From: Mixta gaviniae
GTDB taxonomy: Bacteria > Pseudomonadota > Gammaproteobacteria > Enterobacterales > Enterobacteriaceae
Reading direction: 5' to 3'
DNA length: 64,000 bases
Assembly (NCBI RefSeq): GCF_002953195.1
Contig: NZ_CP026377.1
Location: 1,612,001 to 1,676,000 of the forward strand
Made by a program: the position numbers and the translations under genes. The notes beneath the pieces were generated by a model, which was not told the origin of the DNA, made no database searches, and saw nothing but the letters and a program-made list of their open reading frames with translations. Below are positions 19,779 through 23,545 of the stretch, piece by piece. Positions within the stretch are counted from its first letter, which is position 1, and each line of letters opens with the position of its first letter.

Positions 19779-22700
19779 TTGAGCCAGGAATATACAGAAG
19801 ATAAAGAAGTGTCTCTTAAGCCGCTTAGTAGTGGTCGCCGTCTGCTCGAAGCGTTGCTGATTCTCGTCGCGCTCTTTGCTGTCTATTTGATGGTGGCGCT
19901 GGTTAGTTTCAATCCTTCCGATCCCAGCTGGTCGCAGACCGCCTGGCACGAACCCATCCATAACCTGGGCGGCAACGTCGGCGCCTGGCTGGCCGATACG
20001 TTACTGTTCATTTTTGGCGTGATGGCCTATGCCATTCCGCCGGTGATTCTGGGGTTGTGCTGGATTACTTTCCGTCAGCGCGATCGCCAGGACTATATCG
20101 ACTATTTCGCTGTCGGCCTGCGCCTGATCGGCGTGCTGGCGCTGGTGGTGACCACCTGCGGCCTCGCGGCGCTGAATGCGGATGATATCTGGTACTTCGC
20201 CTCGGGCGGGGTTATCGGCAGCCTGGTCAGCAGCGCGATGACGCCTTACCTTAACGGCGCCAGCGGAACGCTGGCGCTGCTCTGCGTCTGGGCCGCCGGT
20301 CTGACGCTCTATACCGGCTGGTCATGGCTGACGATCGCTGAAAAAATCGGCGCGGTGGTGATGGGTGTACTGACCTTCGCCAGCAATCGCTCGCGTCAGG
20401 ACGAAGCCTGGTATGATGAGGAAGAAGAGGCGCCTGCGCCGGTCATCAAACGCGTCGTACAGCTTGAAGAAGAAGATGACGTGCTGTTGGCGCCGCCGCG
20501 TAAGCTTTCTGCCGCTGACGACCTCGACGAGGCGGATGATCCGCTGTTCGCCCGCGCCGAAGAGGACGGAGCGGCCAGCGAGACGATGGCGCCTGTTGCG
20601 CCGTCGTCGGCCACCGTGACGCAATCCGCCGCTCAGGCGGGCGGTGCCGCGTCTGTCGTTCAGGCGAGTGCTGCCGCGTCCGCTGTTCAGGTGAGTGCAG
20701 CCGCTTCTACTGCTCCGGCGCTGTCTCAAACCGCCGCCCCGCAGCCAGGCACTGCTCAGCCGCAGCACAGCGCCGCTGCTGGCACGCCTGCTACATTGGG
20801 AGCTGCCGTTGCGTCCCAGCCGCAGGCGAATAACGGCGTTCAGCCGGAAAGCGAGGGCACCGAGCCACCGCGTTACCGGTTTGAAATGCCGCAGCATACT
20901 GCCGCCTTTACGCCGCATATTGATGACGATGACGGCCCGCAAATGGGGAATTGGCAGGATGCGGCAACGTCGGCCACGGGCCAGAACGTCGCCGCCGCAG
21001 CAGCAGGCGCCGCGTCTTCCGCGATGGCCGCCTCCTTTATGCCTGCCAGCGCGCCCGAAGAGAGCAACCCGCAGATTAAGCAGGGCATCGGCCCTGAGCT
21101 GCCGCGTCCGAAGCCGGTTAAACTGCCTACGCGCCGCGAACTGGCTTCCTACGGTATCAAATTACCTTCTCAGCGCCTGGCGGAAGAGAAAGCCCGCCAG
21201 GAGGCGCAGCAGCAGGTCGTGCCGCAGCAGGATGAAGAACAGGCCGCCGGGCAGGAAGAGGCCCAGCTGCATGATGCCTTTATGGCGCAGCAAAAAGCGC
21301 GCTACGGCGAAGCGTTTGTCAGTGAAGATGATGAGGGCGCAGCGGAGCAGGCCGCGCTGGCGCAGCAGTTTGCTCAGCAACAGCAGCAACGTTATGCGCA
21401 ACCGCAGCCGTCTCAGGCCATACCGTCTCAAGTGACGCCGTCTCAACAGGCTGCGCCGGAGCCGCAGGAACGCGCTCCCGCGCCGTTTGCACCAGCGCCT
21501 GACGCCGGCTATCAGCCGCCGCAGAGCGAGGCGACACCGCCGCGTGAAGCCATGGGCTTTACCCTCGATCCCGCGACCGCTTTCGACTTTTCGCCGATGG
21601 AAGATCTGGTGGATGACGGCCCAAGCGAGCCGCTGTTTACCATTGCCGCAACGCCTGAACCGGAGCTGCCGGCGGTTGAGCCGCAGTGGCAGCAGCCAGC
21701 TGAGCCTGCCGAGCCGCATTATCACCGTGAGCCTGACGTTGTCGTACCGGCGCCGCAGACATCCGCTCCGGCTTCTCCGGTAGCCGCCGCGCCGTCTGCC
21801 TGGCAAAGTGCGCCACAGGCGCCCTTCACGTCGGCAGCGCAGCCGAACGCGACAGCACCGCACGCTTCTTCAGCGCCGCAGGCATCATTCGCGCCGGCAG
21901 CGCAGCCAAACGCGACAGCACCGCACGCTTCTTCAGCGCCGCAGGCATCATTCGCGCCGGCAGCGCAGCCGGAGGAGCCGGAAACGGAGGCGCCAGCTTC
22001 ACTGAGCGATAGCCTGATCCATCCGTTCCTGATGCGTCATGAGCAGCCGCTGCATAAGCCAACGACGCCGCTACCGACGCTTGACCTGCTGACCTCGCCG
22101 CCAGCCGAAGAAGAGCCGGTGGATATGTTTGCGCTGGAGCAAACTGCCCGTCTGGTGGAAGCGCGCCTGGGCGACTATCGCGTCAAGGCGGAAGTGGTTG
22201 GCATCTCCCCGGGCCCGGTTATCACGCGTTTCGAGCTGGATCTGGCGCCGGGCGTCAAAGCCGCGCGTATCTCCAACCTGTCACGCGACCTGGCGCGTTC
22301 GCTGTCGGCGGTCGCGGTGCGCGTAGTGGAAGTGATCCCCGCAAGCCTTACGTTGGCCTGGAATTGCCGAACAAACGCCGTCAGACTGTTTATCTGCGCG
22401 AAGTGCTGGACTGCGCCAGCTTCCGTGATAATCCTTCTCCGCTGTCGGTGGTGCTGGGTAAAGATATCGCCGGTCAGCCGGTGGTGGCCGATCTGGCGAA
22501 AATGCCACACCTGTTGGTAGCGGGTACGACCGGCTCCGGTAAATCGGTCGGCGTCAACGCCATGATCCTCAGCATGCTCTATAAAGCCACCCCTGAAGAG
22601 GTGCGCTTTATTATGATCGACCCGAAAATGCTGGAGCTGTCAGTTTATGAGGGCATCCCTCATCTGCTGACGGAAGTGGTCACCGATATGAAAGATGCGG

Positions 22701-23545
22701 CGAACGCGCTGCGCTGGAGTGTCGGCGAAATGGAGCGCCGCTATAAGTTGATGTCCGCCCTCGGCGTGCGTAACCTGGCGGGCTACAACGAGAAGATCGA
22801 ACTGGCGGAAGCGATGGGCCGGCCGATCCCTGATCCGTTCTGGAAGCCGGGCGACAGCATGGATACCCTGCCGCCGACGCTGGAAAAACTGCCTTATATC
22901 GTGGTGATGGTGGATGAGTTCGCCGATCTGATGATGGCGGTCGGTAAGAAGGTAGAGGAGCTGATCGCGCGTCTGGCGCAGAAAGCGCGTGCGGCGGGTA
23001 TTCACCTGGTGCTGGCGACACAGCGTCCATCGGTGGATGTGATTACCGGTCTGATTAAGGCCAACATCCCGACGCGTATTGCCTTTACCGTATCGAGCAA
23101 AATCGACTCGCGCACCATTCTCGATCAGGGCGGCGCCGAATCGTTGCTGGGCATGGGCGATATGCTCTATATGCCGCCGAACTCCTCGATTCCGGTGCGC
23201 GTTCACGGCGCCTTTGTGCGTGACCAGGAAGTCCACGCCGTGGTACAGGACTGGAAAGCGCGCGGACGCCCGCAATATATCGACAGCATCACCGCTGGCG
23301 ACGAGGGCGAAGGCGGCAGCCTGGGGCTGGAAGGCGACGAGGAGCTGGATCCGCTGTTCGATCAGGCAGTCTCGTTCGTGGTGGAAAAACGCCGCGCCTC
23401 GATTTCGGGCGTGCAGCGACAGTTCCGCATCGGCTACAACCGCGCCGCGCGCATTATCGAGCAGATGGAAGTGCAGGGCATCGTTTCCCCGCCGGGTCAT
23501 AACGGCAACCGCGAAGTGCTGGCGCCGCCGCCGCACGAAATGTAA
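19779..23545 (+). pseudogene. ftsK: DNA translocase FtsK, frameshifted as sequenced
   Basis: FtsK is the septal DNA pump that clears the chromosome and activates XerCD at dif. The start is TTG, as in E. coli. About four membrane segments (residues 22-180) are followed by a long Pro/Ala/Gln linker and the motor. The frame breaks near 22341: after VRVVEVIP the expected [15 protein letters not shown] reads on only in the -1 register. Relative to the expected GGC codon, one G is missing after CCCC at 22337-22340. The first frame runs on to 22520, just short of Walker A (GTTGSGKS from 22523), so the product would lack the ATPase and gamma domains. Restoring one base gives about 1255 residues ending in an intact gamma domain ([19 protein letters not shown]). 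A sequencing error, a true mutation, or recoding are possible. The linker has a 63-base tandem repeat. Confidence 0.93.
21833..21958 (+). repeat. 63-base tandem repeat in the ftsK linker
   Basis: Two near-perfect 63-base copies (21833-21895 and 21896-21958) and the first bases of a third. Each encodes 21 residues, AAQPNATAPH then ASSAPQASFAP. The copies differ at a single base (AGCCGAAC versus AGCCAAAC). The repeat keeps frame and lies in the disordered linker between membrane and motor domains. Confidence 0.9.

Follow-up and report, generated by a model that had tools for sequence, protein, structure and literature searches.

The ftsK gene of Mixta gaviniae is divided over two reading frames in the assembled genome, and comparison of sequences indicates with high confidence that a deletion of one base was left over in the assembly at the break, a type of defect that a consensus of long reads retains at short runs of G or C. 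A sequencing error is the most likely cause, since other genes and rRNA copies of the same genome also miss single letters. The analysed window is a stretch of 64,000 nucleotides taken from a genome (G000) that is represented by a single contig of 4,527,605 bases and for which we infer a long-read platform.

Frames and domains of ftsK as assembled

In the assembled sequence the ftsK region covers positions 19779–23545 of the forward strand, and the list of open reading frames (ORFs) spreads it over two frames. The first (19779–22520, forward strand, 913 aa) encodes the 4TM domain, the linker and most of the alpha domain, followed by about 59 out-of-frame residues up to the TAG stop codon at 22518–22520; according to the comparison with relatives, its in-frame stretch reaches residue 854. 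The second (22364–23545, forward strand, 393 aa) starts with TTG and contains the motor and the gamma domain without signs of decay. Pfam matches are divided in the same way, with FtsK_4TM and FtsK_alpha (profile positions 1–92 of 101) on the first ORF and FtsK_SpoIIIE, the motor, together with FtsK_gamma on the second. A preliminary description of this DNA, made from the letters alone, had placed the N-terminal division domain in frame and the motor out of frame, in agreement with these matches. It had also located the end of the product at 22520, directly before Walker A from 22523, and both positions were recovered in the ORFs: the stretch GTTGSGKS, which we take to be the Walker A motif of the motor, is read in the second ORF at 22523–22546 (forward strand).

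When the two pieces are searched apart, all four domains known from the FtsK DNA translocase of Enterobacterales (Mixta, Pantoea, Escherichia) are found in their usual order. With the whole genome as target, the second ORF matched one place alone, the ftsK locus. Neighbouring genes encode an Lrp/AsnC-type regulator, LolA and a RarA-like ATPase, the last with model matches below the curated cut-offs. The FtsK encoded by G005, another genome of the genus, agrees at all of 972 residues with P0013, a protein assigned by its source to Mixta theicola, in accordance with a placement of the window in Mixta (Erwiniaceae).

Continuity of ftsK in relatives

The site of the break comprises a run of C at 22337–22340 and the G that follows it (22337–22341, forward strand). 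The run is as previously described, and the claim that the gene is one base short there is upheld by the relatives: the stretch 22331–22363 has 33 letters in the window and 34 in each of the 45 relatives that aligned at the site (46 were given; L047 was without a match). A near-identical protein, P0001, is an FtsK of 1276 aa that runs uninterrupted across the break site. It stands for a cluster of five sequences and originates from an ENA contig of 503,518 bases; judging from sequence identity, it presumably belongs to the same species as the window. In contrast to the continuous gene at the site in all aligned relatives, and throughout in P0001, the gene assembled here occupies two frames.

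BLASTP of the first ORF, out-of-frame tail included, gave 855 of 914 identical positions with P0001; the in-frame part differs by seven substitutions (hand count) and one gap of 21 residues. A 63-bp tandem repeat of 2.6 copies is found in the linker (21810–21971, forward strand), where P0001 is longer by one 21-residue unit, a difference in copy number that may reflect genuine variation or, once more, the assembly. The motor is nearly identical to that of P0001: over the second ORF 392 of 393 residues agree (BLASTP), and the sole mismatch is the TTG start read as M. The earlier statement that the downstream frame shows no decay is confirmed by this identity, which also rules out a gradual decay of ftsK.

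A protein of about 913 aa was absent among the matches listed to the first ORF (the best 120 of 7991 scored), which were 1162 to 1276 aa long. Together with the lack of the break in all 45 aligned relatives, these lengths rule out a split FtsK as a trait of the family. For the second ORF the search had length limits that shut out full-length FtsK; the best matches listed were 93–94% identical, and no near-identical protein of 393 aa occurred among the 120 listed. A literature search revealed no title on a Mixta ftsK among the matches listed.

Missing bases in other genes and in rRNA copies

To place the break in context, 720 kb of the genome of the window were compared with 400 kb of a one-contig relative (G001) and 642 kb of a relative of the same genus in a 70-contig draft (G004), the ORFs of each being run against the DNA of the others. 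Under a looser rule, nine splits were obtained in G000 with the ORFs of G001 and nine with those of G004, compared with 13 and 8 in G001 and 3 and 2 in G004. A large share of them consists of short N-terminal pieces, and those of G004, mostly of this type, all fail the stricter rule, which demands 45 aa or more and an identity of 75% or more in both flanks. With the stricter rule, nine distinct split sites remained in the 720 kb of G000, all net −1, and seven in the 400 kb of G001, six of them net −1, whereas the 642 kb of G004 contained none. One of the nine sites in G000 lies in an ORF that is not a gene and overlaps one for tRNA-Ser (tRNA artefact). The remaining eight loci encode an MlrA-type regulator, a DHA2 family efflux permease, a GGDEF protein, PotG, FtsK, an aliphatic sulfonate transporter ATPase, a muramoyltetrapeptide carboxypeptidase and RsxD. 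Names other than that of ftsK come from NCBIfam or Pfam matches on the intact relatives; for the MlrA-type regulator the NCBIfam score is under its cut-off and the MlrA Pfam domains are above theirs. A YceI family gene is also split in G000 by the looser rule and fails the stricter one through a short flank.

In matched counts, six of 443 ORFs of G004 were split in G000 and none of 447 ORFs of G000 in G004 (p=0.015); without the ORF overlapping the tRNA gene the counts are 5/443 against 0/447 (p=0.030). The ftsK gene is not among the six, because its variable linker is only 68.6% identical in G004, and it was counted from G001. It is the only site within the 64-kb window that passes the stricter rule. 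A run of at least four G or C lies within 12 bases of seven of the nine split sites, compared with 6.7% of the places in a random sample of 20,000 (binomial p=2e-7).

In a further comparison, 138 conserved ORFs of E. coli, 143 kb in total, were run against 1.52 Mb of G000, and five were flagged, for which gene names were taken from the annotation. Among them apaG is a clear split of a protein-coding gene (net −1) and two lie within rRNA; the two others, in front of rsmH and of thiG, look like artefacts of upstream extension and were set aside. Besides ftsK, suspected errors in G000 are located in apaG at about 0.90 Mb and in eight further split loci between 1.46 and 2.18 Mb, which are the YceI family gene and the seven other genes named above. 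Fourteen genes of essential type were found in one frame with a nearly full-length match in G000 (15 had been chosen; dnaE lies outside the DNA compared), and no protein gene seen to be split here is, to our knowledge, essential in E. coli. Such a sparing of essential-type genes would also be expected from tolerated real mutations, and with so few sites chance would give the same picture.

The rRNA genes of G000 disagree among themselves in length. Two of the seven 16S copies (L249–L255) have 1542 bases and five have 1541. Four of the short copies miss a base in a conserved run of six G, and the fifth misses it at an ATCCCC/G junction, which is the sequence context of the ftsK break. In the 23S genes, of which four copies between 4.24 and 4.51 Mb were examined, three have one G too few in a run of five or six, and in two of these three a base is also absent at a third, variable place. 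As only some copies are affected, and at conserved places of the rRNA, we consider real gaps hard to credit and a consensus error the ordinary cause. A conserved 201-base stretch of 16S served as a control and gave matches in 25 of 40 genomes. G000 (5/7), G001 (4/7) and G003 (3/7), all three of one genus, have short copies, and there are none among 93 copies in the remaining 22 genomes, including G002 and G006 of the same genus with seven copies each. The defect goes with particular assemblies and not with the genus; G000, G001 and G003 may have a sequencing method in common.

Origin of the frame break

These observations bear the marks of an artefact: an excess of breaks over G004, their position at homopolymer runs and gaps in rRNA copies of the same genome. 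Similar to the spurious pseudogenes that assembly indels create (PMC11017572; PMC12007338), single-base deletions at short runs fragment unrelated genes here. Assembly errors account for many putative bacterial pseudogenes (PMC11017572), errors of long reads are mainly short indels at homopolymers, most deletion errors following four to five equal bases (PMC12007338), and homopolymer-length errors usually remain in bacterial assemblies made from long reads only (PMC8812927). In contrast to PMC12007338, where runs of A/T are affected about twice as often as those of G/C, seven of the nine sites found here lie beside G/C runs. Long-read consensus would have dropped a single base at such a run, as it can at short runs of G or C, and ftsK is most likely ordinary and continuous in the living strain.

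The preliminary description had left the choice between a sequencing error and a very recent mutation. Error is now strongly favoured by the split genes and the rRNA, and the mutation has become much the less likely of the two. In that case a one-base deletion would have arisen very recently in the sequenced strain, which would keep the membrane and division domain, lose the motor and survive, impaired in the resolution of dimers and in segregation of the terminus. The undecayed frame of the motor is what a recent event would leave behind, and a mutation specific to the strain is compatible with the intact P0001, because that protein comes from another strain. An E. coli strain without the FtsK motor is viable. 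According to PMC2585057, the N-terminal domain of E. coli FtsK holds the essential function, being required for division, and mutants in translocation form filaments and chains. However, deletions of one base next to G/C runs are found repeatedly in the assembly and in its rRNA copies, and none of the 45 relatives has the break, so that we regard a real mutation as improbable.

Even further from what the data suggest is a functional split, in which the second frame would yield the motor through frameshifting of the ribosome or from a start inside the gene at 22364. This frame is indeed open from its TTG to the normal end; nevertheless, with the break in none of the 45 relatives, a conserved recoding site is absent and programmed frameshifting is rejected. 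No Rfam match reached the gathering score in 21800–23000 (one stayed below it, E=0.56), and by eye no canonical slippery heptamer was seen. A functional split is given hardly any weight.

The headline of the preliminary description, taken as a claim that the living strain has a split ftsK, is probably untrue, since the split genes and the rRNA weigh strongly for error. If the break were real, which we consider quite unlikely, this Mixta strain would possess an FtsK cut down to its division domain, with a motor that is either silent or produced apart from it, beginning at a start inside the gene, and would offer a natural experiment in life without DNA pumping by FtsK. With a residual assembly error as the preferred reading, apparent losses of core genes in the assemblies of G000, G001 and G003 should not be taken as biology before checks at the level of reads. 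Unequal lengths among the rRNA copies of a single genome give a rapid warning of such errors, for which no reads are required. The ftsK break itself probably does not exist in the living strain.
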